DNA of 64,000 bases. It comes from Terriglobia bacterium (GTDB taxonomy: Bacteria; Acidobacteriota; Thermoanaerobaculia; Thermoanaerobaculales; Thermoanaerobaculaceae). Position 1 is the stretch's first letter. Each line of letters begins with the position of its first letter. Location of the stretch: NCBI GenBank assembly GCA_020073245.1, contig JAIQFQ010000003.1, forward strand, positions 1 through 64,000, given 5' to 3'. Below the pieces are notes generated by a model. The model saw only the letters and a program-made list of their open reading frames with translations, was not told the DNA's origin and did no database searches. The position numbers were made by a program, and so were the translations under genes. This document shows, one piece after another, positions 35,601 through 63,782 of the stretch.

Positions 35601-35635
35601 GTGTGTTCCTTTCTTTCTGACGTCTCTGACGTCGC

Positions 35636-36928: not shown

Positions 36929-36953
36929 GTCACCCCCGACGGCAGCCCGCGTC

Positions 36954-38411: not shown

Positions 38412-38451
38412 CGTTCCATTCCTCCCCGCCGAGCCAGCCCTCGCAGGGCGG

Positions 38452-39717: not shown

Positions 39718-39725
39718 GGTGCCCT

Positions 39726-40676: not shown

Positions 40677-40688
40677 CGCCCCCTCCTC

Positions 40689-41567: not shown

Positions 41568-41579
41568 CGCACCACGACC

Positions 41580-43064: not shown

Positions 43065-43111
43065 CAGTTCCGCCCCTCTCGAGGGTCGCGCGCCGACCGC
43101 GACCGTTCTCC

Positions 43112-45039: not shown

Positions 45040-45083
45040 TTCGCATCTCCTTTCAGCCGTGAGAGCCGAAGCTTCACGGTCGT

Positions 45084-45320
45084 TCACACCTTCCTGTCTC
45101 TCCTCTGACGCCCTTCGTCGGATGACGAGAGGGCGCTTTTCTTTGCCGTGGTTTCGGGAGGGCCCAACTCGACGTTCACGGGTCGTCCGTCGCGGATTGA
45201 CTGGGTGGCAGCCAGGCTGACCGCGACCAGGCGCGCGCCGTGCGTGCGGTGCGCAACGGTCTCCGCATGCGGCAGCCTGATGCGGCCTACGCCAATGATG
45301 CCGATCCTCACATCGCTCAT
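45084..45320 (-). pseudogene. Internally deleted Gfo/Idh/MocA (iolG-like) remnant
   Basis: N-terminus MSDVRIGIIGVGRIRLPHAETVAHRTHGARLVAV is joined in frame to C-terminal motif SLAATQSIRDGRPVNVELG; 78 aa total. Confidence 0.7.
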
Positions 45321-45330
45321 GACACCGCCC

Positions 45331-46221: not shown

Positions 46222-46237
46222 CGTTTCGCCGCCCTTC

Positions 46238-47587
46238 TCAGTCCCTCAGCCGGACTCGCCACAGCGTCGTCGCCAGGACCAGCGAGAGCACGGATGAGCC
46301 CACCCAAAACCAGATCGCCGTCGAGAAGTCGTAGTGCCGGACCCCATCGACCATGACCATCCCGCGTTGGATCAAATGGCCACTCAGCCACTCCTGGAGC
46401 GCTGCGCCCACGTAGGAGAAGACCCCTACGAACCCCATGGCGGCACCTGCTGCCTTCTTGGGCGCGATGTCGATTGCGAAGAGTCCCCCGAGCGAGGTCA
46501 CGAGGCCCGTCACGCCGAACCCATACAGTAGGAAGCCCGCCGTCATGAACACCGGCTTGCCCGGCGGACCGAAGAAGATCATGAAGAGTCCCGCGAGCTC
46601 GAGGATGCCGAAGATCAGGTTGACCGGTGGCCGCCGGGCTTTGAAGAGCTTGTCCGAGGCGAAGCCGAATGCGACCGCGCCCGCCATCCCGGTCAGCGTT
46701 CTGGCCATCTGCACGCTGCCGGCGAGCATCAGTGAGTAGCCCTTGCCCTCCTGCAGGTAGAGGATCCCCCAGCTGTCGATGGCGTACCGCGTGACGTACA
46801 TCAACGCGCTCGCGAGCGCGAGCACCCAGATCGCGGGGTGCTTCAACACCACACGCTGGCTCGCCCAGATGCTGCCTTTCTGATCTTCGCTGCTTGCCTT
46901 TCCTGTCAGGTGGTCGTTCTTCCAGTCCGCGACCGGGGGCAGGCCGAGCGTCTGCGGCCGGTCCTGCATCAGGAGGTAGATGGCGATAGCCACCAGAACG
47001 CCGAGCAGCCCCGGTCCCCAGTAGCCGGCCCTCCAGCCCCACGCCGTGACCACCGCAGCAACCCCGATAAACGTCAGCCCCTCGCCGAGGCCGTGAGCGG
47101 TACTCCAGATGCCGTAGATCCGACCACGCTCGCGGTTGGAAAACCACTGCGCCATCGCCACTGCACCGGCGGGCGCGCCGAACGCCTGGAACCAGCCGTT
47201 GAGCGCCCACAGCACCACCGAGAGCCAGAGCGCCGTCGAGAACCCCATCCCGAGATTGAGCGCCGCAGAGACAAGCACGCCGGTCGCGAAGAAAACTCGC
47301 AGGTTGGCGTGGTCGGCGAGAAAACCGTTCGTGAGCTTGCCGACTGCGTACGTGTAGAAGAGAGCGGCACCGATGATTCCGAGTTGCTCCGCAGAGAAGA
47401 TCCCCTCGTCGATCAGGGGCTTCTTGACCATCGACAGGGCCAGGCGGCACGTGTAGGCCAGGCCGTAGCCCACGGTGATCGCCAGCATGATGCGCAGGCG
47501 GTGCCGCTTGTAGAGACGGTCGACCTCCGCCGCGTTCGTGAGCAGCGGTCTGTCCGGACCTGTCGCGAAGAAGCTCAGCAGGCTCAT
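46238..47587 (-). CDS. MFS transporter, organophosphate:phosphate antiporter (OPA; GlpT/UhpT-like)
   Basis: YGLAYTCRLALSMVKKPLIDEGIFSAEQLGIIGAALFYTYAVGKLTNGFLADHANLR; 12 TM pattern. Confidence 0.82.
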   Translation of the reverse strand: MSLLSFFATGPDRPLLTNAAEVDRLYKRHRLRIMLAITVGYGLAYTCRLALSMVKKPLIDEGIFSAEQLGIIGAALFYTYAVGKLTNGFLADHANLRVFFATGVLVSAALNLGMGFSTALWLSVVLWALNGWFQAFGAPAGAVAMAQWFSNRERGRIYGIWSTAHGLGEGLTFIGVAAVVTAWGWRAGYWGPGLLGVLVAIAIYLLMQDRPQTLGLPPVADWKNDHLTGKASSEDQKGSIWASQRVVLKHPAIWVLALASALMYVTRYAIDSWGILYLQEGKGYSLMLAGSVQMARTLTGMAGAVAFGFASDKLFKARRPPVNLIFGILELAGLFMIFFGPPGKPVFMTAGFLLYGFGVTGLVTSLGGLFAIDIAPKKAAGAAMGFVGVFSYVGAALQEWLSGHLIQRGMVMVDGVRHYDFSTAIWFWVGSSVLSLVLATTLWRVRLRD

Positions 47588-48609
47588 CAGCCCTTCTTGG
47601 ACGCGATAGATGCCGGTTTCTCGACCCGGACCGGCCGGTTCTCGAGCAACGACTGTTTGGCTGCCAGGACGATGAGCAGTGCCATGAGGCCGTCGTTGCC
47701 CCCTGCCGGGGGTTCCCTGTCCCCGCGGATGCTGGCGAAGAAAGCCTCGAGCTCGAGCACAAATGACCGTTGATAGCGCTCCAGGAAGAAGTACAGCGGA
47801 TTCTCGTGGCGCACGCCCGCGCCGCTGCGGAGAACCGTCCGCGCGGGGGTCTCGTTGAACGCCTCGATCCCACCCTTCGAGCCGAACACCTCGATCCGCT
47901 GGTCGTAGCCGAACACCGCCTGGCGGCTGTTCTCGATCACCGCGAGCGCGCCGTTTGACAGCCGCATCGAGATCACGGCAGTGTCGATGTCCCCAGCCAC
48001 CCCGATCGCGGGATCCACGAGGACGGCTCCGTAGGCGTGCACCTCCTCCACCTCGCTCCCCGAGAGGAACCGCACCATGTCGAAGTCGTGGATCGTCATG
48101 TCAGCGAACATCCCGCCCGAGGACTTGACGTACTCGATCGGCGGTGCGGCCGGGTCGCGCGCCGTGATCCTGACCAACTGGACGTCTCCGACCTCGCCGT
48201 CGGCTACGGCCCGCCGGACCCTGGCAAAGGTGGGATCGAAGCGCCGGTTGAAACCCTCCTGGAGCTTCACGCCGCTACGCTTAACCGTCTCGAGCGTGGC
48301 GCGGACTCGCTCCGCGTCGACGGCGATCGGTTTTTCGCAGAAGACGTGCTTGCCCACCTTTGCGGCCGCCTCCGTGAACTCCGCGTGCGACGGCGTCGGC
48401 GAGCAGACCAGCACCGCCTCGATCTCCGGGTCCTTCAACACGTCCTCGGGGTTCTTGCTCGTGGCGACCGCAGGCCCCGGCCACTCCTTGAAGTCGACGT
48501 AGGGATCCGCGATCGCCTTCAGACGGACACCGGTCATTGCCATGAGGTTGTTCGCGTGAATCTTGCCGATCCTCCCGGCGCCCAGGATCCCTGCGGTGAT
48601 CACTCTCAT
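47587..48609 (-). CDS. iolG: Inositol 2-dehydrogenase-like Gfo/Idh/MocA oxidoreductase (copy 1)
   Basis: ITAGILGAGRIGKIHANNL; HVFCEKPIAVDAERV; QEGFNRRFDPTFARVR; MTIHDFDMVRFLSG. Confidence 0.85.
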   Translation of the reverse strand: MRVITAGILGAGRIGKIHANNLMAMTGVRLKAIADPYVDFKEWPGPAVATSKNPEDVLKDPEIEAVLVCSPTPSHAEFTEAAAKVGKHVFCEKPIAVDAERVRATLETVKRSGVKLQEGFNRRFDPTFARVRRAVADGEVGDVQLVRITARDPAAPPIEYVKSSGGMFADMTIHDFDMVRFLSGSEVEEVHAYGAVLVDPAIGVAGDIDTAVISMRLSNGALAVIENSRQAVFGYDQRIEVFGSKGGIEAFNETPARTVLRSGAGVRHENPLYFFLERYQRSFVLELEAFFASIRGDREPPAGGNDGLMALLIVLAAKQSLLENRPVRVEKPASIASKKG

Positions 48610-49643
48610 CGCCGTTGCCCTCCGCTGCTGCGCTGGACGTCTTCCGAAAGCCGGACCGGTCTGTGCTCCAGGTGCGAGGTCTTTGCGGCAGCGGCCGCCT
48701 TCACTGCGGCCAGAGCATCCTCGGCACCGACGCGGACCGGCGATCCCTCCCGAACCGCCGCGACGAACGCAGAAAGCTCCGCGATGAACGCCTCGCGGTA
48801 CCGCCCGACGAAGTTCTCGTGCGGCTTGTCGGCCACGACGCCCCCCTTCGAGCTCGAGACGACCGTTGTGGGGGTGGTGTTCTCGACGACGATGCTCCCT
48901 TTCGAGCCGAACACCTCGAACCTCTGGTCGTAGCCGTAGTTCGTCTGGCGGCTGCAATCGATGACCCCGAGGGCGCCGCTGGCGAGCCGCACGGTGATGA
49001 CGGCCGTGTCGACGTCGCCGGCCTTTCCGATCTCCGGGTCCACGAGCACTGCCCCCACCGCAAACAGCTCCACGATCTCGCTGCCGGAGAGGAAGCGGAT
49101 GGTGTCGAAGTCGTGGATCGCAAAGTCGAAGAACAAACCCCCGGAGCGTTTCACGAACTCGATCGGAGGCGCTTTCGGATCACGGTTCGTGACCCGCAGG
49201 TGGTGGATCTCGCCGACCGCTCCGGCCTTGACCCCCTGCCACATCTTGAGAAGGCTCGGATCGAAGCGACGGTTGAAACCTACCTGGAGCTTGACGCCGG
49301 CGGAGGCTGCCGCGGCTCGGGCCTGCTCGATGGGCTCCGGCTCGAACGCCACCGGTTTCTCGCAGAAAATGTGCTTGCCCGCCGCGGCAGCCCGCCGGAT
49401 CAACTCGACGTGAAACCCTGATGGGGCCGTGATGACGACGCCCTCGATCTCCGGGTCTTGGAGAATCTTGTCAGCGTTGGTCGATCGCACCGGGATGCCC
49501 AACGCGTCGGCCCAGGCCGGATCGACCTGCCTCCGGCTGACGACCGCCTTGACGTAGGCATCGGGTATGGCGTGCACGAGGTTCTCCGTGTGCATCCTTC
49601 CGATGCGTCCGATACCTATCACCCCAACCGTCGTCGGCCTCAT
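48606..49643 (-). CDS. iolG: Inositol 2-dehydrogenase-like Gfo/Idh/MocA oxidoreductase (copy 2)
   Basis: GVIGIGRIGRMHTENLVHAIPDAYVKAVV; HIFCEKPVAFEPEPI; QVGFNRRFDPSLLK; FAIHDFDTIRFLSG; ATGA overlap with copy 1. Confidence 0.85.
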   Translation of the reverse strand: MRPTTVGVIGIGRIGRMHTENLVHAIPDAYVKAVVSRRQVDPAWADALGIPVRSTNADKILQDPEIEGVVITAPSGFHVELIRRAAAAGKHIFCEKPVAFEPEPIEQARAAAASAGVKLQVGFNRRFDPSLLKMWQGVKAGAVGEIHHLRVTNRDPKAPPIEFVKRSGGLFFDFAIHDFDTIRFLSGSEIVELFAVGAVLVDPEIGKAGDVDTAVITVRLASGALGVIDCSRQTNYGYDQRFEVFGSKGSIVVENTTPTTVVSSSKGGVVADKPHENFVGRYREAFIAELSAFVAAVREGSPVRVGAEDALAAVKAAAAAKTSHLEHRPVRLSEDVQRSSGGQRR

Positions 49644-49817
49644 GAGTCACCTACCTCCCGCTCTTCCTCGAGCGACCACGCCATGAGATGGGCGCAAGCC
49701 GCGGGCACACACTTTGCGTCTTCCCAACTCCGTAAGAGAAAGGGCTCGCGATCGCAACCGACGAGGCTGGGATCGTTTGGAAGCTAGCTCAGATCATCGT
49801 CTCCGCGGTTCTGCCTC

Positions 49818-52517
49818 CTAGAAGTTGAGCTTCACCCCGATAGTCCCCCACCACTTGTAGTACTCCTCCTGCAGCGGCCTGTCCGACGTACCCTCGTAGA
49901 TGCGGTACGGCTCGTTGGTGAGGTTGTTCACCTCTAGGAACGCAGCGATCTTGTGCCCTATCTGCTGCTGGGCCGAGAAGTCGAGCTGGGTGTGGGTGTC
50001 CACCCACTGGTCGGGCGCGCCTTCCGTTCCGACAAAGAAGATGGCCTTGCCGTTGTAGTTGACCGAGACCCGCCCGGAGAACCCGGCCTTCTCGTAGGTC
50101 AGCGCGACGTTGCCGATGCCCTTGGCCTGCCCGGGCAGGGCGCTGTCGGGGTGTCCCGGGTAGCTCGACTTCGAGTCGGCGTAGGTGTAGTTCAAGTACA
50201 GCCCGAGCCCGTCGAGAGGCTTCGGAAGCGAGCTGAAGCGTGCCTGGTACGCGGCCTCGAGACCGCGCAGCCAGCCCTCCTCGGCGTTGATCGGCTGGGT
50301 GACCTCGTACGGTACGCCGTCGATGATCTCCTGTCCGACGGCGGTGTAGATGTTGTCCGTGATCCGCTTGTAGAACGCCCCCGCCGAGAAGATGCCGACC
50401 GACGGCAGGTAGTGCTCGAACAGCAGGTCGAGGTTCCACGACGTCGTGGCTTTGAGGTCGGGGTTGCCCTTGGTGATGGACTGACCCTCGTGACTAAGGA
50501 TGACGTTGGGGTTCACCTGAAAGAAGTCGGGACGCGCGAAGGAGCGTGTGATGGCGACCCGGAAGTTGGAACGCTCGCCGACCTTGTACTTGAGGTGGAC
50601 CATCGGCAGCACCGTGGTGTAGTCCTTCTTGCCGGAGATCGGGGTCAGGCCCGACGGGTTCCCTTCCGTATCGTAGATCAACTCGTGGGAGTCGTACGTG
50701 TTGTGGGTGTTCTCCGCCCGCACCCCGGCCAGGATGATGAGGTTGGCACCGAGGTCGAACTCGGCCATCCCATAGACCGCGATCGTGTTCTCCTTGGCAT
50801 TGAGGCCAGCCAGGGAATCTTCGAGGCTGTACTCGCCGGTCAGCGTGCCGTCTGCCTTGCCGTTGGCGAGGAAGTCCCTCATCTTCTTGGGATCCTCGAA
50901 CAACGGAAGGGTGTAGCGGCCGTCGACGAACGGCGTTGCGGTTGTGAAGGAGCCGAGGAAGTCGGTCAAGTACAACGTCTGGTCGGTGGTGTACGTGTAC
51001 AAGTCGTACGTCTGGTTCTTTTCCTTGAAGCGGGCCTTGGCGCCGAACTTGACGAGGCCGCTGAAGCTGGTGTCGCGGTAGAACGCTCTGGTGAGGTCGA
51101 CCGAGCCGGTGTAGTCCCTCTCGCTGGCGTGCTTGGCGGTCGTCACGAGCTTGTTGAACAGCGCCTTGGTAATGTCCATGTTGGTGGGGTTCGCCTGGAT
51201 GTTGTCCGGATCGATGGAGGTGGGGGAGACGTTGGGGCTGAACTTCACCTTCTTCTGGGTGAACGTCGTGGTGACCTGATCCGGTGTGTCCTCGGAGGAC
51301 TTGTTCCATGCGACGTGGTAGTTGAGGACCGACTCGCCGAGCATTGCACTCCCTCCGGCGCTGAGGGAGTTGATGTGGGAGGTCTGGGTGCGGTCGCGCA
51401 GCTCCCATCCTTCTTGGCCCTTCGTGACCAGGTTGCGGAGGTTCCGACGGATCTCGCTGTCCTTGTACAGGTTGAACAGCCCGCGCAGGTGGAACTCCGA
51501 GCCAGTCGAGAACTGCCGGTCGATCGAACCGGTGAAGCCGGACCGCTCCCGCGTGAGCGTGTAGTCACGGAGCGAGAGCTCATCCAGGTTGCCTTCGACA
51601 TAGGTCGGCTCGAAGTCGTCGGAGCCCCGGTTGGCCTGGCTGCCGGTCAGCGACAGCAGGAGGCCGGTCTTGCCCTCGCTGAAGCGCCGACCCCAGGTGA
51701 ACGCCGCGTTCGCGAGCGTGTCCTTCGAGATCGCGTCCCACCCCCCTCCGATCGTTGCCTGGATGCGCTGCTCCAGGGGCGCCCTCTTGGTCACCAGGTC
51801 CACCGTGCCCCCGATCGCGTCGCCGTCCATGTCGGGGGTGAGCGCCTTCGAGACCTGGATCGCCTCGAGGAGGTCGGCCGGGATGGTGTCGAGAGCGATC
51901 GTGCGCACATCGGCTTCGGACGCGGGGATGCGCTCGCCGTTGACGGTCGTGGAGTTCAGCCGCTGTTCGGTGCCGCGGATCAGCACGTAGCGCCCCTCGC
52001 CCTGGTCACGCAGCAGCGAGACTGCGGGGAGCCGCTGCGTCGCCTCGGCCGCGTTGGGGTCGGGGAACTGGCTCATCTGGTCCGACGCGACAACGTTGGT
52101 GATGTTGACCGCGTTCTCCTGGGTGTTGAGCGCCTTCGCCTGCCCCTCGATGATCGGCGAACCGCTGACCCTGATCGCCTCGCTGTACGCGAGCTTGGCG
52201 TCCAGGGTCGCCGTCTCACCGGCCGCTACCTTCACCGTCCCCGTCACCGCTGCCAAACCGAGGTAGGTGAACACGAGCGTGTGCTCGCCGGCGGGAACTG
52301 GGCCGATGCGGTACGCCCCGCGGAAGTTCGTGGTGGCTTCCAGGTTTGTTCCCGCCAGCGTGACGCTCACCTTGGACAGCGCATCGCCCGTCGGCCCTCG
52401 TACTGTTCCGACGATCGTGCCGCTGCCCGACTGCGCCTGGGCGACGCCAGAAAGCAGGGCAAGCCCAGCAATGAGAAACGGAATGATCCAACTTCGGTTC
52501 CTGTGCCCGGACGCCAT
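49818..52517 (-). CDS. TonB-dependent receptor
   Basis: Signal peptide, carboxypeptidase-regulatory-like domain, plug (AVNITNVVASDQMSQFPDPNAAEATQRLPAVSLLRDQGEGRYVLIRG), C-terminal Phe. Confidence 0.93.
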   Translation of the reverse strand: MASGHRNRSWIIPFLIAGLALLSGVAQAQSGSGTIVGTVRGPTGDALSKVSVTLAGTNLEATTNFRGAYRIGPVPAGEHTLVFTYLGLAAVTGTVKVAAGETATLDAKLAYSEAIRVSGSPIIEGQAKALNTQENAVNITNVVASDQMSQFPDPNAAEATQRLPAVSLLRDQGEGRYVLIRGTEQRLNSTTVNGERIPASEADVRTIALDTIPADLLEAIQVSKALTPDMDGDAIGGTVDLVTKRAPLEQRIQATIGGGWDAISKDTLANAAFTWGRRFSEGKTGLLLSLTGSQANRGSDDFEPTYVEGNLDELSLRDYTLTRERSGFTGSIDRQFSTGSEFHLRGLFNLYKDSEIRRNLRNLVTKGQEGWELRDRTQTSHINSLSAGGSAMLGESVLNYHVAWNKSSEDTPDQVTTTFTQKKVKFSPNVSPTSIDPDNIQANPTNMDITKALFNKLVTTAKHASERDYTGSVDLTRAFYRDTSFSGLVKFGAKARFKEKNQTYDLYTYTTDQTLYLTDFLGSFTTATPFVDGRYTLPLFEDPKKMRDFLANGKADGTLTGEYSLEDSLAGLNAKENTIAVYGMAEFDLGANLIILAGVRAENTHNTYDSHELIYDTEGNPSGLTPISGKKDYTTVLPMVHLKYKVGERSNFRVAITRSFARPDFFQVNPNVILSHEGQSITKGNPDLKATTSWNLDLLFEHYLPSVGIFSAGAFYKRITDNIYTAVGQEIIDGVPYEVTQPINAEEGWLRGLEAAYQARFSSLPKPLDGLGLYLNYTYADSKSSYPGHPDSALPGQAKGIGNVALTYEKAGFSGRVSVNYNGKAIFFVGTEGAPDQWVDTHTQLDFSAQQQIGHKIAAFLEVNNLTNEPYRIYEGTSDRPLQEEYYKWWGTIGVKLNF

Positions 52518-52594
52518 CGTCTCCTCCTTGCAGGTTGGTTGTGCCCTTCGCACGGTGGATTCGCTCCGTACCTACCGCGTTTGGGACCCCGTTA

Positions 52595-52606
52595 TGGAAC
52601 GTTCCA
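52595..52606. promoter_or_regulatory. LacI-family operator O1 TGGAACGTTCCA
   Basis: Perfect 12-bp palindrome in TonB receptor/lacI intergenic region. Confidence 0.75.
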
Positions 52607-52684
52607 ACTGCGCCGTTTAAAAGAATCACCTCCCGTCCTACGTGCTACCTGCACACCGCGCTTGGCGGTTTCGTGGCGCCGTAC

Positions 52685-52696
52685 TGGAACGTTCCA
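52685..52696. promoter_or_regulatory. LacI-family operator O2 TGGAACGTTCCA
   Basis: Perfect 12-bp palindrome. Confidence 0.75.
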
Positions 52697-52698
52697 TC

Positions 52699-52728
52699 TT
52701 GCAACCAACCGAATAGTTCTGCTATGAT
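52699..52728 (+). promoter_or_regulatory. Predicted lacI promoter (TTGCAA - 18 nt - TATGAT)
   Basis: -35/-10-like hexamers located between operators O2 and O3. Confidence 0.55.
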
Positions 52729-52729
52729 T

Positions 52730-52741
52730 CGGAGCGTTCCA
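52730..52741. promoter_or_regulatory. LacI-family operator O3 CGGAGCGTTCCA
   Basis: 10/12 match to palindrome, directly downstream of -10 and 12 bp upstream of the lacI ATG. Confidence 0.65.
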
Positions 52742-52752
52742 GGAGGAATCTA

Positions 52753-53808
52753 ATGCCAAGGAGGAGCAATGTCAAGACTCAGCCCTCTCAAAGCGAACCC
52801 ACGATCCTGGATGTGGCACGCAAGGCGCGCGTCTCGAAGTCGCTCGTCTCGATGGTGATCCGCGGAGACGACGGCGTCAGCCCCAAGAACCGGGAGGCGG
52901 TACTGAATGCCATCGAGGAGCTCAACTACCGCCCCAACGCGATCGCCCGTAGCCTCGTGGAACGCCGGACCCGGATACTCGGAGTGATGATCTCGGACCT
53001 CCGCAACCCGTTCTTCGGTGACGTGGTGTCCGGAATCCAGATACGGGCCGAGGAGCTTGGCTACCGGGTGCTGTTCAACACCGGTGACTGCGTGCCGAAG
53101 CTGGAGGAGGCAGCGATCGAGAGCCTTCTCGAGCTTCGGGTCGACGGTTTGATCCTGGCGGCCCCGCGGGTCGACGATCCGATCATCGAGCGTGCCGGCC
53201 GCGTGCTGCCGGTCGTTGTGCTCAACCGAGACACCTCCGCCACCCACAGCGACAGCGTCACCAACGACAACATCGCCGGTGCCGGCCTCGCGGTCGAGCA
53301 CCTCGCCGGCCTGGGGCATACCCGCATCGCCCACATCGACGGTGGAGGCGGTGCTGGAGCCAGCGTGCGCCGAGAGGGGTATCTGCGGGCAATGCGGCGG
53401 CTGGGCCTCGGGGACCATATCCTCACGGTCGAAGGAGCGTTCACCGAGAACGGCGGCTACCGCGGCGCCTGCGAACTCCTCAAGAGCGCCCCGCTCCCCA
53501 CTGCGATCTTCGCCGCCAACGACATTTCCGCAATCGGCGCGCTGAGGGCGCTTGAAGAGGCGGGACTGCGCACCCCCGCCGACGTCTCCGTTGTCGGCTA
53601 CGACAACACCTCGCTGGCGGCGCTTCATCAGATCTCGCTCACGAGCGTCCAGCAGTTCGGGACGGACAACGGTCGCCTCGGGGTCGAGTGCCTCGTCGAG
53701 CGCATCGAGGGGAAACGGTCGACGCCCCGGCACGAGGTCCATGCGCCGACGCTGGTGGTGCGCTCCTCCACTGGGCCGCCTCCCAACGAACCCAAAACGC
53801 TTTCCTGA
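52753..53808 (+). CDS. LacI-family transcriptional regulator
   Basis: TILDVARKARVSKSLVSMVIRGDDGVSPKNREAVLNAIEELNYRPNAIARSL HTH; SBP-like effector domain. Confidence 0.95.
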   Translation: MPRRSNVKTQPSQSEPTILDVARKARVSKSLVSMVIRGDDGVSPKNREAVLNAIEELNYRPNAIARSLVERRTRILGVMISDLRNPFFGDVVSGIQIRAEELGYRVLFNTGDCVPKLEEAAIESLLELRVDGLILAAPRVDDPIIERAGRVLPVVVLNRDTSATHSDSVTNDNIAGAGLAVEHLAGLGHTRIAHIDGGGGAGASVRREGYLRAMRRLGLGDHILTVEGAFTENGGYRGACELLKSAPLPTAIFAANDISAIGALRALEEAGLRTPADVSVVGYDNTSLAALHQISLTSVQQFGTDNGRLGVECLVERIEGKRSTPRHEVHAPTLVVRSSTGPPPNEPKTLS

Positions 53809-53860: not shown

Positions 53861-55360
53861 TCAAGACCGGGACTCACCAAGGGCCAGCTGCATGACCCGC
53901 TCCTGTGTGGCCTCGGCGCGGTCCAGCACGCCTTGGAGCGCACCCTCGTGCATGACCGCCACGCGATCGGCCAGACCGAGCAGCTCCGGCATCTCGCTCG
54001 TGATCAACACCACGGCGACGCCTTGCCCGACCAGCTCGCCGATCAGCTCGTAGATCTCGGCCTTGGCCGCCACGTCGATCCCACGCGTGGGCTCGTCGAA
54101 CAGCAGCACTCGACACCGGGCCGCGAGCCAGCGGGCCAGCACCACTTTCTGCTGGTTCCCGCCCGAGAGGCTTACGGTCTCCTGATCCAGAGACGCGAGG
54201 TGGATTTTCAGCCTCTCGACCAGCCCCTCGGCCCTTTCGCGCTCGGCGCGGAGATCGAGCACGCCGAACCGGGCGACGTCGTCGAGGCTGGTCAGGGTGA
54301 TGTTCTCCCCGACCGAGCGCTGCAGCATCAACCCCTGGCGCTTTCGGTCCTCGGTGATGAACCCCAGGCCCGCGGCGATGGACGCGCCTGGGTTCCGGCC
54401 CGACATCGTCCGGCCTGTCACGCGGACCGTGCCACCGTCAGCGACATCGGCACCGAAGATGGCTCGGGCCAGCTCAGTTCGCCCCGACCCCATCAGACCG
54501 GCAACACCCAGGATCTCTCCCGAACGGACCGACAGGCTGACCGGCGAGAGGACGCCCGCGCGAACGAGGCCCTCCACCTGCAAGACGACCTCTCCGATCC
54601 GCACCTCGCGCTTGGGGATCTGCTCGGCGATGGTGCGCCCCACCATGAGCTGAATGAGTTCGGCCACCTCCGTGTGCTTTACGTCCCGCGTTCCCACGGT
54701 ACGGCCGTCGCGCATCACGGTGACACGGTCGCCGATGGCGAAGATGTCTTTCATCCGGTGCGAGATGAAGATCACTGGCACGCCGTCGCCGCAGAGCGAG
54801 TGAATCACATCGAAAAGGGCCTCGATCTCGCTGTCGGAGAGCGCGGCCGTGGGCTCGTCCATCACCAGCAGCCGGGCCCTCTGCCGGAGCGCGCAGGCGA
54901 TCTCGACGAGCTGCTGCTCGGCCACCGACAGATCGGCGACCGGCGTGTCCGGGTCCACATCACAGCGAAGCTTGGCGAGCAGGTTCTGCGCGCCCTGGCG
55001 CATCGCATCGCTCCGGATCAAACCGCCGTGGGTGGGCTCATGGCCCAGGAAGACGTTCTCGGCCACGCTCAGGCCAGGCACCAGGTTGAGCTCCTGGTGG
55101 ATCATGACGAGACCCCGGGACTCAGCTTCCAGAGGGCTCGCTGGCCGGATGGCCTCGCCCGCAAAAGTCACGACGCCGGAGTCGGCGGTGTACTGGCCGC
55201 ACAGGATCTTCATGAGGGTGGACTTGCCGGCGCCGTTCTCGCCGAGCAGCACGTGGACCTCACCCGGAAGCACGTCGAGTCCGGCGTCCTGGAGGGCCTG
55301 CACGCCGGGGAAGCGTTTGCAGATCCCCCGCATCCGGAGAATCGGCTCCATGCCCGTCAC
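53861..55360 (-). CDS. Sugar ABC transporter ATP-binding protein (RbsA/MglA-type, duplicated ATPase)
   Basis: LLGENGAGKSTLMKILCG; DLSVAEQQLVEIACAL; SLSGGNQQKVVLARWLA; EPTRGIDVAAKAEIY. Confidence 0.94.
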   Translation of the reverse strand: MTGMEPILRMRGICKRFPGVQALQDAGLDVLPGEVHVLLGENGAGKSTLMKILCGQYTADSGVVTFAGEAIRPASPLEAESRGLVMIHQELNLVPGLSVAENVFLGHEPTHGGLIRSDAMRQGAQNLLAKLRCDVDPDTPVADLSVAEQQLVEIACALRQRARLLVMDEPTAALSDSEIEALFDVIHSLCGDGVPVIFISHRMKDIFAIGDRVTVMRDGRTVGTRDVKHTEVAELIQLMVGRTIAEQIPKREVRIGEVVLQVEGLVRAGVLSPVSLSVRSGEILGVAGLMGSGRTELARAIFGADVADGGTVRVTGRTMSGRNPGASIAAGLGFITEDRKRQGLMLQRSVGENITLTSLDDVARFGVLDLRAERERAEGLVERLKIHLASLDQETVSLSGGNQQKVVLARWLAARCRVLLFDEPTRGIDVAAKAEIYELIGELVGQGVAVVLITSEMPELLGLADRVAVMHEGALQGVLDRAEATQERVMQLALGESRS

Positions 55361-57315
55361 GGGTTCCCCCTCGAGGGCGGGGCCTTCATCCCCCTCTTCG
55401 CGAAGGAGCCGACGTTCAGCCGGTCGATCATCTCTACCCGCGTGAGGATCTCCCTGGGGGGAGTCGTGCCGTCCCGCAGGAGGGCGACGGCATGGCGCAA
55501 TCCCAGGCGTCCCATCTCGCCGGGAAACTGGGCAACCGAGCCAAGCAGGCGCCCCGAGCCGATGTTGGCCAGGGCATCCGGGATCGCATCGAAGCCGACC
55601 ACGCCCACGTGCCCCAGTCGCCGCGCAGCAGCCACGGCCTCGAGCGCCCCCAATGCCATCTCATCGTTGGCGGCGAAGATGGCATCGAGGTCCGGATGGG
55701 CCTGAAGCAGGTTCTCCGCCACGGTGTAGGCGCGGGCCCGCTCCCAGTCGGCCGTCTGGCTCGCCACCACTCGGATACCCGGATGAGCCTCGATTCCATT
55801 CAGGAACCCGAGGCGTCGCCGATCAGCGGTCTCGTGCCCCGAGATCCCCTCGATGATCGCCACGTTTCCTTTGCCGCCCAATTTGTCCGCAAGATAGCGA
55901 CCGGCCACGGCGCCGCCTTCGAAGTTATCCGAGCCGATGAAGGTGAGTACCCTAGCTCCCATCGACTCGGCCGCTCCCTGATCGATCCGTGTGTCGAGAA
56001 TCAACACCGGGATGCCCGCGTCGTTGGCCTTCCGGATCGCCGGGACGAGTTCCTTGGAGCCGGCCGGCGCCAGCAGGATGGCGTCCACCTTTTGCTGAAT
56101 CAGGTTCTCGATGATCTGATACTGCCGTTCGACGTCCGTCTCCCGGTCTGCTGCAAGCGAGACGAGACGGACCCCTTGGGCCGCGGCTTCGCGTTCGGCC
56201 GCCTGTTGCATCTCCGCCCAGAACGGTGAGTTCAAGGCCTTGGGCACGAAGGCGATGGTGAATGTCTTTGCCTGCGTGGGCGCATTGAAGGTGGCCCGGA
56301 TCCCAAAGGCTGCCGCCATGACCACCGCCGCGCCGATGCCAGCGAGGACAAGCTTGCGGTAGCGCGTCCATCCCCTGAGCTTCTCGGCCTCGGCAGCGCG
56401 GTGCCGCGCGCGGTCGAAGACGACCGCGGCCACGAGCACCCCACCCACCACCATCCCTTCCAAGGCAGATGGGACGTTCAGAGCGTTCAAACCGTTGCGC
56501 AGCGTCCCCATGATCAGCGCGCCGACGAGCGTGCCCAGAACACCGCCCTCACCACCCATCAGGCTCACCCCGCCGATGACTGCCGCAGCGATGGCGTACA
56601 GCTCGTACATCTCGCCCGAGAGCGGCGAGGCGGCATTCAGCCGCGAGGTCATCAGGACCGCCGCCACACCGGCCATCAGCCCGGACAGCGTGTAAATCGC
56701 CACCTTGTATCGGCCGACCCGCACGCCGGAAAGCCACGCTGCCTGTTCGTTGCCACCGATGGCGTAGCTGTAGCGGCCGAGCTTTGTGCGCGTGAGCACG
56801 AGGTGGGCAAGCACGTACAGGACCGCCACGATCAGAACCAGGACGGGGACACCTGCGACGCTGCCGGAAAGCGCGCGGAACGACTCCGGCAGGCCGCTGA
56901 TCGGTTTGGACCCGGAGTAGATCTTGGCCGCGCTGCGGGCGATCAGCATCATGCCGAGCGTGGTGATGAACGGGGGAATCCGACCCAAGGTGGTAATCAG
57001 CCCGTTGGCCAGGCCGCACACCCCTCCGACCAGCAGTCCGGCACCGATGGCGACCGCGCCCGAGTGCCCGGCCACGAGTTGGTCGGCCACCACCAGACCG
57101 CACAAGGCGAGGATGGAGCCTACCGACAGATCGATCCCCCCCGAGATGATCACGAACGTCAAGCCGATGCCGAGGATCGCGTTGATCGCCGACTGCTGCA
57201 TCACGTTGAGCAGGTTGTCCGTGGCCAGGAAGTGGGGTGAGGCGATGCCGAAAAGGAGCGCTACCCCGATCAGCACGAAGAGCGTCTGTAGGCGCGGGGA
57301 GAGATGGCGGATCAT
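55357..57315 (-). CDS. Fused sugar ABC permease (RbsC-like) + periplasmic binding domain (RbsB-like)
   Basis: N-terminal permease (GLTFVIISGGIDLSVGSILAL) continues in one ORF into FTIAFVPKALNSPFWAEMQQAAEREAAAQGV...LDAIFAANDEMALGALEA. Confidence 0.9.
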   Translation of the reverse strand: MIRHLSPRLQTLFVLIGVALLFGIASPHFLATDNLLNVMQQSAINAILGIGLTFVIISGGIDLSVGSILALCGLVVADQLVAGHSGAVAIGAGLLVGGVCGLANGLITTLGRIPPFITTLGMMLIARSAAKIYSGSKPISGLPESFRALSGSVAGVPVLVLIVAVLYVLAHLVLTRTKLGRYSYAIGGNEQAAWLSGVRVGRYKVAIYTLSGLMAGVAAVLMTSRLNAASPLSGEMYELYAIAAAVIGGVSLMGGEGGVLGTLVGALIMGTLRNGLNALNVPSALEGMVVGGVLVAAVVFDRARHRAAEAEKLRGWTRYRKLVLAGIGAAVVMAAAFGIRATFNAPTQAKTFTIAFVPKALNSPFWAEMQQAAEREAAAQGVRLVSLAADRETDVERQYQIIENLIQQKVDAILLAPAGSKELVPAIRKANDAGIPVLILDTRIDQGAAESMGARVLTFIGSDNFEGGAVAGRYLADKLGGKGNVAIIEGISGHETADRRRLGFLNGIEAHPGIRVVASQTADWERARAYTVAENLLQAHPDLDAIFAANDEMALGALEAVAAARRLGHVGVVGFDAIPDALANIGSGRLLGSVAQFPGEMGRLGLRHAVALLRDGTTPPREILTRVEMIDRLNVGSFAKRGMKAPPSRGNP

Positions 57316-57450: not shown

Positions 57451-57479
57451 TTGACATCGTTCCGTTTAGCCATTAGATT
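57451..57479 (+). promoter_or_regulatory. Predicted promoter TTGACA - 17 nt - TAGATT for the iolM/phytase operon
   Basis: Consensus -35 with 17-bp spacer; operator O4 begins 5 bp after the -10. Confidence 0.6.
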
Positions 57480-57484
57480 CCTTT

Positions 57485-57496
57485 TGGAACGCTCCG
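57485..57496. promoter_or_regulatory. LacI-family operator O4 TGGAACGCTCCG
   Basis: 10/12 match to TGGAACGTTCCA. Confidence 0.65.
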
Positions 57497-57528
57497 AAGG
57501 ATACCGCGTGAGTTGCGAAGGTGCAAGC

Positions 57529-57540
57529 TGGAACGTTCCT
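57529..57540. promoter_or_regulatory. LacI-family operator O5 TGGAACGTTCCT
   Basis: 11/12 match. Confidence 0.7.
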
Positions 57541-57610
57541 AGGGACGATACTAATGCGTTTCTTGCCGTAGGGAGGGTGAATCCGGAAGCCATTTCATTA
57601 GGGTTGGTGT

Positions 57611-57622
57611 TGGAACGTTCCA
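57611..57622. promoter_or_regulatory. LacI-family operator O6 TGGAACGTTCCA
   Basis: Perfect palindrome (TTGGAACGTTCCAA). Confidence 0.75.
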
Positions 57623-57659
57623 AAACGAGCCTTGCGAACTGACGAAAGGGAGAGAGGCC

Positions 57660-58859
57660 ATGCAAACGACGATGCGGGGTGTGACGCTTCACGCGGAGTG
57701 GAAGCCGAAACCGGGGTTCAAGCTGGGTGCCAAGGACATCGACGGGAAGCAGACCTACCTCGGCAGCAAGGTCTGGAAGAACCCGAAGTTGTCGATCGAC
57801 GAGCACCGGATCCCGGAGCCGAAGGACGACGAGGTGCTGATCGAGATGAAGGCGGTCGGGATCTGCGGCTCCGACGTCCACATGAACCAGGCCACCGATG
57901 ACGGGTACATCTTCTACCCCGGTCTCACCGGCTTCCCGGCGATCCTGGGCCACGAGGTGGCCGGCGTTGTCGTCAGGGGCGGCAAGAACGCCCTCGACAA
58001 AAGGACGATGAAGCCGTTCAAAGGCGGCGAACCCGTCTGCTCCGAGGAGATGGTGTGGTGCGCCAAGTGCCGGCCGTGCGCGGACGGGCTGCCCAACCAC
58101 TGCGAGAAGCTGGACGAGATCGGTTTCAACGTGAACGGCGGGTTTGCCCGCTACATCGTTGTGCCGTCGCGCCTGGTCTGGAGCCTGGAGCCGCTGCGCC
58201 GAGCGTATAAGGGGGACGACATCTTCCTCGCCGGCTCGCTGATCGAACCTACCTCTGTCGCCTACACCGCCATGATCCAGTGGGGTGGGGGCGTTCGCCC
58301 CGGCGACAACGTGGTGATCTGCGGCGGCGGACCGATCGGAATGGCGGCGCTCAGGATCATGAAGACGCAGGGGGCATCCACGGTCATCCTCTCGGAGACC
58401 GAACCCGCGCGCCAGAAGCTCGGCAAGCTGATGGGCGCAGACCACGTGATCGATCCCAGCAAAGAGAACTTCACCGAGCGTGTGCTGCAGTTGACCGATG
58501 GCATGGGAGCCAAGCTCTACCTCGAGGCTACGGGCTTGCCGACGATCGTCTACCCCGCCATCGAGCAGGCGATCTGGGAGGGGAGAACGCTCAACTCAAC
58601 GGTGGTGGTTGTCGCCCGCGCCGACGCGAAGATGCCGGTGACGGGTGAGGTTCTCCAGGTGCGCCGCGCGCAGATCGTCGGGTCGCAGGGGCACTCGGGC
58701 CACGGGACGTTCCCGCACGTGATCGAGGCGATGGCGGCTGGGATGGACATGACGCCGATCATCACGAAGAGGATCAAGCTTGACCAGGTCCCTGAGCACA
58801 TAACCCTGCTGCGTACGAACCGCACCGAGGTCAAGATCACCTGCGTGGACTTCCAATAA
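57660..58859 (+). CDS. iolM: Zn-dependent alcohol dehydrogenase, scyllo-inosose 3-dehydrogenase-like (IolM)
   Basis: GVTLHAEWKPKPGFKLGAKDIDGKQTYLGSKVW; CGSDVHMNQATDDGYIFYPGLTGFPAILGHEVAG; EEMVWCAKCRPCADGLPNHCEKL; RRAQIVGSQGHSGHGTFPHVI. Confidence 0.85.
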   Translation: MQTTMRGVTLHAEWKPKPGFKLGAKDIDGKQTYLGSKVWKNPKLSIDEHRIPEPKDDEVLIEMKAVGICGSDVHMNQATDDGYIFYPGLTGFPAILGHEVAGVVVRGGKNALDKRTMKPFKGGEPVCSEEMVWCAKCRPCADGLPNHCEKLDEIGFNVNGGFARYIVVPSRLVWSLEPLRRAYKGDDIFLAGSLIEPTSVAYTAMIQWGGGVRPGDNVVICGGGPIGMAALRIMKTQGASTVILSETEPARQKLGKLMGADHVIDPSKENFTERVLQLTDGMGAKLYLEATGLPTIVYPAIEQAIWEGRTLNSTVVVVARADAKMPVTGEVLQVRRAQIVGSQGHSGHGTFPHVIEAMAAGMDMTPIITKRIKLDQVPEHITLLRTNRTEVKITCVDFQ

Positions 58860-58946: not shown

Positions 58947-60140
58947 ATGCAAGGGCTGATACGGCCGGCCATTCTCGCCATGGGTGTAGTCACCGTGCTC
59001 GGCTGCACGGGGGCCGTCCCGGTGACGGAGCATTTCCAGGTAGTGCAATCCACGGTGACGACTGGACCCTGTCACTCGGCGGGCGACGCCTGCGACGATA
59101 GCGCGATCTGGATCCACCCGACCGATGCCTCACAGAGCCTGATCATCGGCGACGACAAGAACGGAGGCATGGTGGTCTGGACCCTCACCGGCCAGGAGAT
59201 CCAGTTCATCGACGGGGGCACGAACATGAACAACGTCGACCTCCGGTACAACTTCCCGCTCACCGGGACTTTTTCCACCGGACAGACGCACACGCACGTG
59301 GCATTGGTCGGCGTCACCAACGAGACAGACGCGGGCGTGACCCTCTACAAGGTGAACCCATACTCCTCGCCAGCGGGCAAACTCGAATATGCCAACGCCA
59401 CGCTGGCGGCAAGCACGCTCCCACTTGCCAAACCGCTGGTCTACGGCGGCTGCATGTACTACAGCCAGCCGTCCGGCACGTACTACTTCTTCGCGAACTG
59501 GAAGGACGGGACGGTCAAGCAGGTGGAGCTGATCGGCGGCTCGGCGGTGAGCGGGAAGGTGGTGCGGACCTTCGACGTCGGAGGGCAGGTCGAGGGATGC
59601 GTTGCCGACGATGTGTATCAGGGCTTCTACATCGGCGAGGAGGACGTAGGGATCTGGAGGTACGGCGCCGAGCCAACGGCCGGCGACTCTCGCGCCCAAG
59701 TGGACCGGGTCGGCTCCGCAACGGGGCTCAAGGCGGATGTCGAGGGTCTCACGCTCTACTACAAGAGCGACGGCAGCGGCTACCTGATCGCCTCCGGCCA
59801 GAGCGCCGGGCCCGACGTGCGGAACGTCGTCTACGAGCGTACCGGCACGAATGCATGGGTGGGGACGTTCCGCGTCCAGGACACGGATGAGACCGACGGC
59901 ATGGACGTGACCAACCTCCCACTCGGCCCAGCCTTCCCGCACGGTGTTCTCGTAACGCACGACGCCTCACCGACACCGTCGCGCCACCGTTTGACACCGT
60001 TCGAACGGATAGCCACAGCGCTCAACCTGACGATGGACTCGACGTGGGACCCGCGATGCTCACCGTACGGGACCTGCACTGGCAGCGCGCCGAGACCCGC
60101 CGTCACACCGACGAGCGCCCCGAGGGGGCCGGCACGCTAG
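58947..60140 (+). CDS. Beta-propeller phytase (3-phytase-like), lipoprotein
   Basis: Lipobox VTVLGC; DDSAIWIHPTDASQSLIIGDDKNGGMVVWTLTGQEIQFIDGG; EGCVADDVYQGFYIGEEDVGIW; LTPFERIATALNLTMDSTWDPR. Confidence 0.88.
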   Translation: MQGLIRPAILAMGVVTVLGCTGAVPVTEHFQVVQSTVTTGPCHSAGDACDDSAIWIHPTDASQSLIIGDDKNGGMVVWTLTGQEIQFIDGGTNMNNVDLRYNFPLTGTFSTGQTHTHVALVGVTNETDAGVTLYKVNPYSSPAGKLEYANATLAASTLPLAKPLVYGGCMYYSQPSGTYYFFANWKDGTVKQVELIGGSAVSGKVVRTFDVGGQVEGCVADDVYQGFYIGEEDVGIWRYGAEPTAGDSRAQVDRVGSATGLKADVEGLTLYYKSDGSGYLIASGQSAGPDVRNVVYERTGTNAWVGTFRVQDTDETDGMDVTNLPLGPAFPHGVLVTHDASPTPSRHRLTPFERIATALNLTMDSTWDPRCSPYGTCTGSAPRPAVTPTSAPRGPAR

Positions 60141-60202
60141 CTCGCGTCAAGAATGGGTTCCCAGTGAGCATCGATGACCGAACCCGCCGAACTTCGAGCC
60201 GG

Positions 60203-60955
60203 ATGCGGTGGGCCACCCTCTTCCTATCGAGCGTCATCGTCGCCACGGTGGCCCGGGCGGGCCCCCCGTTTGTGACCGACGATCCCGAGATTCCGCCTTT
60301 GCACGGTTGGGAGATCAACATCCCGCTGTCCCTTGAGCACGAGACCGGGGAGAGTGTAGTCGAGGCGCCGGTGGTCGACATCAACTACGGCTTGACCTCG
60401 AACGTGGAGCTGATGATCGAGTTCGCGTTCCTGCATGCAACCCTGGGCGAAAACCGAACGGAGCACGGGCTGAGCGACACCGGCGTTGGGGTGAAGTGGA
60501 GGTTCTTGAAGGAGGGCCCACAGGCGCCCCAGATCGCTGTCTACCCCCAGGTCGTGATCCCGACCGGCGACAGCCGGCGCGGCCTCGGGGAGGGGAAGGC
60601 CTCGTATGTGCTTCCCCTGGTCGCACAGAAGAGCTGGGGTGCCTGGACCGTGTTCGGCAACCTCGGGGGAGTCGTTCAGCGCACCTCCGAAAGCCGAGAC
60701 TTCTGGTTCCAGGGGGTGGCGGTAGTCCGGGAGGTCACTCCCCATTTGGAGCTCGGTGTCGAGGAGTACGGCAACTCGCCGATCGACCGGGACGAGCCGT
60801 CCTCGCTCGGGTTCAACGCCGGTGGTATCTGGATGGCCTCCGAGACGGTCGGTGTGCTGTTCTCGGCGGGGCGAACCGTACGCGGCGAGCAGGCCACGAC
60901 GCTCTACCTGGGTGTGCAGCTCCTGATGGGGGGTGCCGGCGGAAGCCCCGATTAG
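60203..60955 (+). CDS. Outer-membrane beta-barrel/transporter-like protein
   Basis: Signal peptide; GPPFVTDDPEIPPLHGWEINIP; repeated beta strands (NYGLTSNVELMIEFAF, GVGVKWRFL, YPQVVIPTGDSRRGLG). Confidence 0.6.
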   Translation: MRWATLFLSSVIVATVARAGPPFVTDDPEIPPLHGWEINIPLSLEHETGESVVEAPVVDINYGLTSNVELMIEFAFLHATLGENRTEHGLSDTGVGVKWRFLKEGPQAPQIAVYPQVVIPTGDSRRGLGEGKASYVLPLVAQKSWGAWTVFGNLGGVVQRTSESRDFWFQGVAVVREVTPHLELGVEEYGNSPIDRDEPSSLGFNAGGIWMASETVGVLFSAGRTVRGEQATTLYLGVQLLMGGAGGSPD

Positions 60956-61025
60956 ACCAAGAACGGCCGCCTCCGGGGACCCTGGCACGTGGCACCGGCG
61001 CGCAAGGTGAGAAAGGAGATTTCGA

Positions 61026-62354
61026 ATGGCCTTGAAGAGACCTGAGTCGTTGATCCTGGCTACCTTGCTTCTCTGCCTGGGCACGGGGGCCGTCTCGGCT
61101 CAGGAGACTCCGGTGCCTCGCGCGGAGCTCAAGTTCGTCGTGATCTTGAGCCGACATGGGGTTCGATCCCCGACATGGAAGACGGACCGACTCAACGAGT
61201 ACTCGACCGAGCGCTGGCCGGATTGGGGTGTCCCGCCGGGATTCCTCACGCCGCACGGCAGCCGGCTGATGGAGCTTGTCGGTGCGTACGACCGCGCCGA
61301 CCTCGCGCAGAGAGGGCTGCTGAGCTCGAACGGCTGTGTCGACGCCGGGCGTGTCTTCCTCTGGGCGGACAGCGAGCAGCGGACGTTGGCGACCGGCCAC
61401 GCTCTGGCGTCAGGCATGTTTCCGGGCTGCGGAGTCCAGGTTCGATCGCTGCCGGAAGGGACCGACGATCCGCTCTTCAGCCCCATGGCAGTCGGTATCG
61501 GACATCCGGACCGTGCCTTGGCGGTCGCATCGGTACTGGGCCGGATCGGCATCAAACCGGGACCACTGATTGAGGCGTATCGACCCGCCTTTGAAACGAT
61601 GCAGCAGGTGCTCCTCGGCTGCACGCCGGGCGCCAAGTGTCCGCCGGAGGGCACGTCCGTCAAGCAATCTCTTTTGGAACTGACGATGTCGGTCACGGAG
61701 GGCAACGGCGACAAACTCGTTGATTTCGCCGGACCCCTCAGCACAGCGTCGACAATTGCCCAGAACTTCCTTCTCGAATACACCAACGGCATGGCAGAGA
61801 AGGATCTCGGATGGGGCCGAGTCACCGAGTCCAACCTGCGGCAGATGATGAGTCTCCATGCGGCGTACTCCGACCTGCTGCGCCGAACGTCGTACCTCGC
61901 ACGCACCAACGGTTCGAACGTGGCGAGCCACATACTCAAGTCGATCGAGCAAGCTGTCGCGGGCAAACCAGTGCGGGGAGCGCTCGGCAAGCCAGGCGAC
62001 AAGGTCATCATCATCGCTGGGCACGACACCAACATCTGCAATGTCGCCGGAATGTTGGGCCTTTCCTGGCTGATCGAGGGCTATCAGCGCGACGACACGC
62101 CACCCGGGGGTGCCCTCGTCTTCGAGCTGTGGCGTCACCCTGTCACACGTGCGTACACCGTTCGAACCTCCTACATGGCTCAGACCCTGAAGCAGATGCG
62201 CGAGGCGCTGCCCTTGACGCTCGCGTCGCCACCAGCAAGAGCCGCGGTCTTCGTGCCGGGTTGCAGCACCTCGGACGGAGCATTCGCGTGCGGCTGGAAG
62301 GAATTCCGGCGGACGCTCGAAACCGCCATTGATCCCGCGTTTGTGAGGCCTTAG
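61026..62354 (+). CDS. Histidine acid phosphatase / AppA-like phytase
   Basis: Signal peptide; VVILSRHGVRSPTWKTD (RHGxRxP-like); IIAGHDTNICNVAGML...DDTPPGGALVFELWR. Confidence 0.88.
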   Translation: MALKRPESLILATLLLCLGTGAVSAQETPVPRAELKFVVILSRHGVRSPTWKTDRLNEYSTERWPDWGVPPGFLTPHGSRLMELVGAYDRADLAQRGLLSSNGCVDAGRVFLWADSEQRTLATGHALASGMFPGCGVQVRSLPEGTDDPLFSPMAVGIGHPDRALAVASVLGRIGIKPGPLIEAYRPAFETMQQVLLGCTPGAKCPPEGTSVKQSLLELTMSVTEGNGDKLVDFAGPLSTASTIAQNFLLEYTNGMAEKDLGWGRVTESNLRQMMSLHAAYSDLLRRTSYLARTNGSNVASHILKSIEQAVAGKPVRGALGKPGDKVIIIAGHDTNICNVAGMLGLSWLIEGYQRDDTPPGGALVFELWRHPVTRAYTVRTSYMAQTLKQMREALPLTLASPPARAAVFVPGCSTSDGAFACGWKEFRRTLETAIDPAFVRP

Positions 62355-62555: not shown

Positions 62556-63590
62556 ATGACGCACAAACATGGCTTGGCTGTCGCACTGCTTTCGCTCGCG
62601 ACGGCGCTCGCGGCAGCGGCACAGCCTGCGCCGGGGGGGTATCGGCTGGTTCGTGCGATCCCGATAGGGGGCGAAGGAGGCTGGGACTACCTCACCGTGG
62701 ACACGGTGGCGCACCGCCTCTACGTCAGCCACGCCACCCGCGTGGAGGTGATCGATACGGAAAAGAACGTGGTCGTGGGTGCGATCCCTGACACACCCGG
62801 GGTCCACGGCATCGCCCTCGCGCCAGGGCTGGGCCGCGGCTTCACCAGCAACGGCCGCGCCGGAACGGTGACCGTATTCGACCTCAAGAGCTTAGCGGTC
62901 ATCACCACGGTCAGGGTGACTGGCGACAAACCCGATGCGATCGCCTACGAGCCAACCTCACACCGGGTTTTCACGTTCAACGGTGGTAGCGCTAACGCCA
63001 CGGCGATCGAAGCTGCGACCGGCCAGGTCCTGGGCACGCTCGCCCTCGGTGGGAGCCCGGAGTTCGCGGTCGCCGACGGCAAAGGGCAGATGTATGTGAA
63101 CCTCGAGGACACGGCGACGCTCGTGACGTTCGACGCACGCACCCTCGAGGTCAAGGGCCGTTGGCCGCTCGCCCCGTGCCAGACGCCGACCGGGCTTGGT
63201 ATGGACCGTGAGCACCGGCGTCTGTTTGTCGGCTGCAGGAGCAAGGTGATGGCGGTGGTGGACGGCGACAGTGGGCGCGTCATTACGACCCTTCCGATCG
63301 GCAGCGGTGTGGACGCCGTGGCCTTCGATCCGGCAAGCGCGCTCGTCTTCGCCTCCAACGGCGACGGGACAGTAACGGTCGTCCACGAGGACTCGCCCGA
63401 GAAGTTCACTCTGGTGGGCAACGTTGCGACCAAGCCTGGGGCGAAGACCCTCGCGTTGGACGGGACCACCCACCGGATCTACCTCTCCACGGCACAGTAC
63501 GGCCCGCCCCCATCGCCCACCGCCGAGCAACCTCACCCGAAGCCGAGCATTCTCGCCGGAACGTTCGAGATCCTGGTCCTAGAGCGTTGA
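62556..63590 (+). CDS. YncE-like (YVTN) beta-propeller exported protein
   Basis: Signal peptide; repeated blades (VDTVAHRLYVSHATRVEVIDTEKNVVVGAIPDTPGVHGIALAP, SLAVITTVRVTGDKPDAIAYEPTSHRVFTFNGG). Confidence 0.75.
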   Translation: MTHKHGLAVALLSLATALAAAAQPAPGGYRLVRAIPIGGEGGWDYLTVDTVAHRLYVSHATRVEVIDTEKNVVVGAIPDTPGVHGIALAPGLGRGFTSNGRAGTVTVFDLKSLAVITTVRVTGDKPDAIAYEPTSHRVFTFNGGSANATAIEAATGQVLGTLALGGSPEFAVADGKGQMYVNLEDTATLVTFDARTLEVKGRWPLAPCQTPTGLGMDREHRRLFVGCRSKVMAVVDGDSGRVITTLPIGSGVDAVAFDPASALVFASNGDGTVTVVHEDSPEKFTLVGNVATKPGAKTLALDGTTHRIYLSTAQYGPPPSPTAEQPHPKPSILAGTFEILVLER

Positions 63591-63782
63591 GGGGAGGCGC
63601 ACGGCTGGCCTTCGGGCCGCTCTCCCAGCCCGAAGCCCGCTGAAGAGGTGGGTGAGAGACGAGGGGATGAGGCCTCGCCTCATGCTTGCTCCTCCCCCTT
63701 CGAGGAGGGTGTGTTTCTGAGGACCGGCATCCCCCCGTTGCGTACTGCGACGATGATCCTTCCGCTTGGGCGGCCGCCAGGG

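Follow-up and report, generated by a model that had tools for sequence, protein, structure and literature searches.

Gene content of the locus

We analyzed a 64,000-nucleotide stretch of DNA from the genome of an uncultured member of the Acidobacteriota (the window). Toward its right end, iolM is followed on the plus strand by genes for a beta-propeller phytase (BPP), a small outer-membrane-protein-like protein (OMP), a histidine acid phosphatase (HAP), and a YVTN-type propeller protein, with intergenic gaps of 87, 62, 70, and 202 bp (Table 1). No terminator-like site above background lies within this run. Given the single strand, the short gaps, and the lack of such a site, co-transcription of the five genes is likely.

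The initial annotation had described a lipoprotein BPP and an AppA-like HAP behind iolM, and comparisons with Pfam, NCBIfam, and PDB bear this out. It had placed the two phosphatases three genes apart, but only one open reading frame (60203-60955) lies between them. Its further statement that they form one operon agrees with the shared strand and the gap lengths; as a claim of co-transcription it reaches only the level of likelihood given above. Nor are most Iol enzymes downstream of the phytases, as had been proposed: they lie in a divergent minus-strand operon (33981-52553) that is part of the same predicted regulon.

The gene divergent from iolM encodes an ABC permease and a periplasmic sugar-binding domain as one 652-aa protein, a fusion that orthologous proteins of relatives also seem to have (for one of them, 80% identity over 638 aa). 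In the minus-strand operon, the antiporter retains GlpT residues Arg45, Lys80, His165, and Arg269, to which we assign their presumed roles in GlpT and which are conserved in the regulon copies. It is adjoined by the TM0415-type kinase, and the pair is kept in the regulon relatives examined. The kinase keeps K171, F221, R229, R232, and M266 (the last varies in some relatives) together with the RXGRGD motif, which has been proposed as a signature of pyrophosphate (PPi)-dependent inositol kinases (PMC5931981). The LarA-like epimerase and Gnd (36954-39717) suggest a lower route from mannonate through gluconate and 6-phosphogluconate to ribulose 5-phosphate. For the HAD-type protein, a sequence search of the PDB gave no match, and an AlphaFold model had a pLDDT of 55, too poor for use. 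The purple-acid-phosphatase-like enzyme carries GDHE where GNHE is usual, and a weak relative is found in the iol cluster of another genome. The single inositol monophosphatase of the genome is located outside the regulon.

Table 1. Features of the inositol locus, with positions in the window and the basis of each assignment.
Feature	Position	Strand	Basis
Purple-acid-phosphatase-like secreted metallophosphoesterase, operon end	33981..35600	-	GDSH, GDLIY, GDHE, VYHE, GHDH
PPi-dependent phosphofructokinase	35636..36928	-	NF010675, 367 bits, above cut-off
6-Phosphogluconate dehydrogenase (Gnd)	36954..38411	-	TIGR00873, 758 bits
LarA-like nickel-dependent hexonate epimerase family	38452..39717	-	NF052594, 190 bits, below cut-off of 500
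HAD-type phosphatase-like protein	39726..40676	-	profile match
SDR, D-mannonate oxidoreductase subfamily	40689..41567	-	NF006132, 354 bits, above cut-off of 281
UxaE-type tagaturonate epimerase	41580..43064	-	PF16257, E 3e-136
IolO-like sugar-acid epimerase (xylose-isomerase-like)	43112..43915	-	name assigned from position and sequence by eye
IolN, 3-dehydro-scyllo-inosose hydrolase	43915..45087	-	NF041098, 316 bits, above cut-off of 245
PfkB kinase, homologue of PPi-dependent inositol 1-kinase TM0415	45331..46221	-	RXGRGD and other PPi residues
MFS transporter, organophosphate:phosphate antiporter (OPA) type (GlpT/UhpC)	46238..47587	-	1pw4, E 1.6e-58
IolG2, inositol 2-dehydrogenase	47587..48609	-	TIGR04380, 427 bits, above cut-off
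IolG1, inositol 2-dehydrogenase	48606..49643	-	TIGR04380, 405 bits, above cut-off
TonB-dependent receptor (TBDR), first gene of inositol operon	49818..52553	-	profile match
Three LacI-type operators (52594, 52684, 52729)	52594..52742	.	between TBDR and lacI
LacI-family regulator, presumed operator reader	52753..53808	+	operators conserved beside its orthologues
ABC ATPase of the same importer as the permease below	53861..55360	-	profile match
Ribose-type ABC permease fused to periplasmic sugar-binding domain	55357..57315	-	BPD_transp_2 34-298, Peripla_BP_4 354-614
Promoter-like TTGACA-17-TAGATT, sigma-70-like	57451-57479	+	5' of iolM
Three LacI-type operators (57484, 57528, 57610)	within 57451..57623	+	palindromes 5' of iolM
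IolM, scyllo-inosose 3-dehydrogenase	57660..58859	+	NF041097, 502.7 bits, above cut-off of 450
Beta-propeller phytase (BPP), lipoprotein	58947..60140	+	PF02333, PDB comparison
Small outer-membrane-protein-like gene (OMP), signal peptide	60203..60955	+	PF13557, E 5e-10; predicted start
AppA-like histidine acid phosphatase (HAP), signal peptide	61026..62354	+	PF00328, NCBIfam, PDB
YVTN/PQQ-type beta-propeller protein, end of the run	62557..63590	+	recurrent HAP neighbour
Terminator-like hairpin 3' of YVTN gene	63689..63707	+	count of such sites in the region no higher than in shuffles

Two unrelated phosphatases of phytase families

The BPP matches PF02333 over its full length (E 4.8e-69; 234 bits against a cut-off of 21) and aligns full-length with the Bacillus structures 3amr and 1poo (E about 1e-56). 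It is encoded once in the genome behind a strong ribosome site, AAGGAGGGG, and its lipobox cysteine (VLGC) has a counterpart at the same position in both congeners. We compared it by alignment with what we take to be the calcium and catalytic residues of TS-Phy, numbering positions by offset on 3amr. It keeps D52, D55, D56, K76, N100, D102, Y159, K179, E211, E227, D258, E260, Q279, and D314, and differs from 3amr at Arg122 (Glu), Glu43 (Thr), Asp308 (Gln), Lys77 (Asn), and Glu180 (Asp). Position 122 is Glu in all three genus members and Arg in the 13 other aligned BPPs. Because this conserved Arg is replaced, canonical activity on phytate should not be assumed; we regard it as likely but uncertain. 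Five BPPs in the inositol regulon of a sister family lack both Tyr159 (Met in its place) and Arg104 of the Bacillus enzyme, and thus represent a divergent BPP subfamily.

The HAP matches PF00328 with an E-value of 2.2e-26 and solved AppA-type phytases with E-values of 1e-70 to 1e-74. It scores 309 bits against the NCBIfam AppA model NF007552, below the cut-off of 585, and 203 bits against the Agp model; judged by sequence, it is an AppA homologue and not an equivalog. Its signal peptide was judged by eye, and its gene has the ribosome site AAGGAG. Alignment with AppA phytases places RHGVRSPT, the distal Arg119 (equivalent to Arg92 of the family), and HDTN in the active site, and R43, H44, R47, T50, R119, H333, and D334 are invariant in seven homologues. 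The protein falls in an Acidobacteriota-rich clade. The initial annotation had made its reading depend on both proteins retaining their catalytic residues: the HAP set is intact, and the BPP keeps most positions but has Glu for Arg122.

A YVTN propeller gene adjoins or lies near an AppA-like HAP at eight loci in other genomes, often with a TonB receptor. Since such TBDR-YVTN-HAP cassettes are frequent elsewhere, the HAP and YVTN genes may have arrived together.

Shared operators define a predicted LacI regulon

Conserved palindromic operators lie at promoters adjoining the lacI gene, and the one at 57484 overlaps the expected transcription start of the iolM run. The GGAACGTTCC sites are presumed to be bound by LacI. 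Eight related genomes, together about 33 Mb, contain 19 perfect TGGAACGTTCCA 12-mers, all of them in the inositol locus and mostly in arrays with a 44-bp spacing that recurs in relatives. Allowing up to one mismatch, TTGGAACGTTCCAA occurs at two sites genome-wide, one in the gap 5' of iolM and one in the TBDR/lacI gap. An operator-like core upstream of a HAP gene in one other genome lies at the end of the neighbouring YVTN gene, and we set it aside as chance.

Phytase genes are repeatedly linked to IolN

Among 120 relatives, nine genomes have a strong BPP match, nine a true IolN, and eight both (Fisher p about 1e-10, for genomes that are related and so not independent); in several, a single contig carries BPP and IolN no more than about 12 kb apart. 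The sister-family gene order is TBDR-IolG-...-IolM-IolN, with a divergent lacI-BPP. BPP is the sole phytase seen in that cluster, without HAP, so the BPP and HAP pair is not essential to the regulon. In congener G004, BPP comes after iolM, and in congener G006 (Acidobacteria bacterium RBG_13_68_16) HAP directly follows lacI and BPP is on a separate contig. The part of the initial interpretation that places the phytases in a unit for inositol catabolism is thus supported, by common operators and by a phytase/IolN-type linkage conserved in two families.

In a tree, genus and sister-family BPPs form separate clades with 100/100 support, each together with non-inositol BPPs. This pattern indicates displacement or separate recruitment of the BPPs in the regulon; alternatively, the ancestor may have had both BPP lineages, followed by loss. 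IolM proteins of the genus and the sister family (four loci) are about 40% identical, although IolN is 83-86% identical, so IolM too may have been displaced. BPP and HAP, two unrelated secreted phosphatases of phytase families, were probably recruited into a predicted inositol regulon.

Among 396 genomes of the phylum, BPP occurs in 16, HAP in 13, and both in this genome only. About 0.5 such genomes are expected by chance, so finding both enzymes in one genome says little by itself; their apparent shared operon carries more weight. At 23 further HAP loci, inspected with up to 10 kb of flanking sequence, HAP had no BPP gene beside it. A control genome, Caulobacter vibrioides, has matches to both families. 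The relatives' genomes and the source genome are drafts, and an assembly or binning artefact that put a foreign phosphatase into the cluster would fit the 89 contigs of the source and the single genome in 396 with both genes, but we consider it extremely unlikely, because the contig is 289.7 kb long and the iolM-BPP of G004 and the lacI-HAP of G006 encode proteins 73-84% identical to those here under the same operators.

Inositol phosphates as a probable carbon source

We think it probable that the locus is a LacI-controlled regulon through which inositol phosphates, either phytate itself or what is released from it, serve as a carbon source. This interpretation is well supported: other genera also carry phytases in this regulon, and non-orthologous ones. 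It also draws on the common operators, the confinement of TGGAACGTTCCA to the locus in eight genomes, the BPP/IolN linkage, and the GlpT-type residues and RXGRGD signature in the regulon copies. Weighing against it are the Arg122Glu change in the BPPs of all three genus members, the Ins(2)P end product expected of AppA-type HAPs, and a sister family whose sole phytase is a divergent BPP without Tyr159.

In the flow we propose, the BPP lipoprotein and HAP would strip phosphates outside the cytoplasm. Free inositol would enter through the ABC importer, while the organophosphate antiporter would bring in inositol monophosphate, at which HAP is expected to stop, and export phosphate in return. Import of the monophosphate would close the gap between an Ins(2)P end product and inositol catabolism. 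Inside the cell, IolG, IolM, IolN, IolO, UxaE, and the SDR would convert inositol to hexonates, which would feed pentose phosphate metabolism through Gnd. The substrates that we give to these proteins are inferred, as is any sharing of work between BPP and HAP. In a far more speculative extension, which we hold to be quite improbable, HAP and BPP would yield a monophosphate for import by the GlpT-type antiporter, the neighbouring TM0415-type kinase, with phosphate in abundance, would run in reverse to give inositol and PPi, and the PPi-dependent phosphofructokinase of this operon would use the PPi. If so, phytate would yield carbon, phosphate, and the energy of a pyrophosphate bond.

Two narrower readings are sub-cases of the carbon-source regulon, so our confidence in them overlaps with our confidence in it. 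One, which we rate as possible though unlikely, is that the true substrates are lower or other inositol phosphates, such as soil scyllo-inositol phosphates or phospholipid-derived compounds, and not myo-InsP6; HAP and the Arg122Glu BPP would then be broad inositol-phosphate phosphatases, with help from the purple-acid-type enzyme that the last gene of the operon encodes. The Arg122Glu and Tyr159Met changes in the genus and sister-family BPPs, the HAP score below the AppA equivalog cut-off, the purple-acid-type phosphatase itself, and an OPA antiporter expected to take monophosphates all fit. The HAP active-site motifs, which are those of AppA phytases, and the mostly intact calcium and catalytic positions of the BPP do not.

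The other, somewhat less likely still, is the sequential scheme of the initial annotation, in which BPP takes InsP6 to InsP3 and HAP takes InsP3 to free myo-inositol. Both enzymes are predicted to be exported from one apparent operon, and the regulon consumes inositol. An AppA-type HAP can, however, act on InsP6 by itself, and its reaction generally ends at Ins(2)P, whose axial 2-phosphate resists removal; moreover, in a sister species HAP and BPP are found on different contigs behind different genes.

It is improbable that the phytases serve phosphate scavenging, with their position in an inositol locus incidental or a bonus. In other Acidobacteriota, BPP and HAP adjoin TonB receptors without iol genes, and low phosphate induces both a BPP of Flavobacterium johnsoniae and the TonB receptor paired with it (PMC8115612). 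Arguing against scavenging here are the common operators and the recurrent linkage of non-orthologous phytases to IolN-type clusters of two families.

The preferred carbon-source reading bears on how these enzymes are viewed. Phytate is the phosphate store of seeds, and bacterial phytases are mostly treated as enzymes of phosphorus acquisition. Phytases of unrelated lineages, two of BPP and one of HAP, occur in the same predicted inositol regulon of different genera, which suggests that uncultured Acidobacteriota draw carbon, and not just phosphate, from phytate or inositol phosphates. A defined operator and gene set are now available for testing, and a route for inositol monophosphate, suggested by the antiporter and PPi-kinase linked to them, can be tested as well.

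Comparison with known systems

Carbon use of phytate has precedents: Mitsuokella degrades phytate to Ins(2)P and inositol, which is then catabolised (PMC7618129), and Klebsiella and Chryseobacterium isolates use phytate as sole carbon source (PMC11219571). The portions of these two reports available to us describe other phytase sets and give no phytase-iol gene linkage. A phytase-IolN regulon was not found in the literature that we searched, where subscription journals were thinly covered, which makes this weak evidence of novelty.

The HAP shares RHGVRxPT and HDTN with enterobacterial AppA (1dkp, 4tsr, 4ars) over a full-length match (E 1e-70), but differs in its score below the equivalog cut-off, its inositol-regulon context, and its Acidobacteriota-rich clade. 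The BPP keeps most of what we take to be the calcium and catalytic residues in the Bacillus enzymes (3amr, 1poo), but is a lipoprotein with Arg122Glu and Glu43Thr. BPP and TonB receptor pairs such as Fjoh_1367/1368 combine a PF02333 enzyme with an outer-membrane receptor, as here; that pair is induced by low phosphate (PMC8115612), whereas the genes described here are predicted to be under inositol (carbon) control.

The inositol pathway of Thermotoga maritima comprises the same enzyme families, IolG, IolM, IolN, and IolO, and the TM0415 kinase (Rodionova 2013, as cited in PMC5931981 and PMC3750489). At our locus IolM and IolN score above curated cut-offs and IolG is present, and the minus-strand operon, by its predicted gene products, encodes a Thermotoga-type inositol route whose lower part differs. 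T. maritima has a ROK-family IolR and an InoEFGK importer, whereas the acidobacterial locus has LacI, a TonB receptor, an OPA antiporter, Gnd, and phytases.
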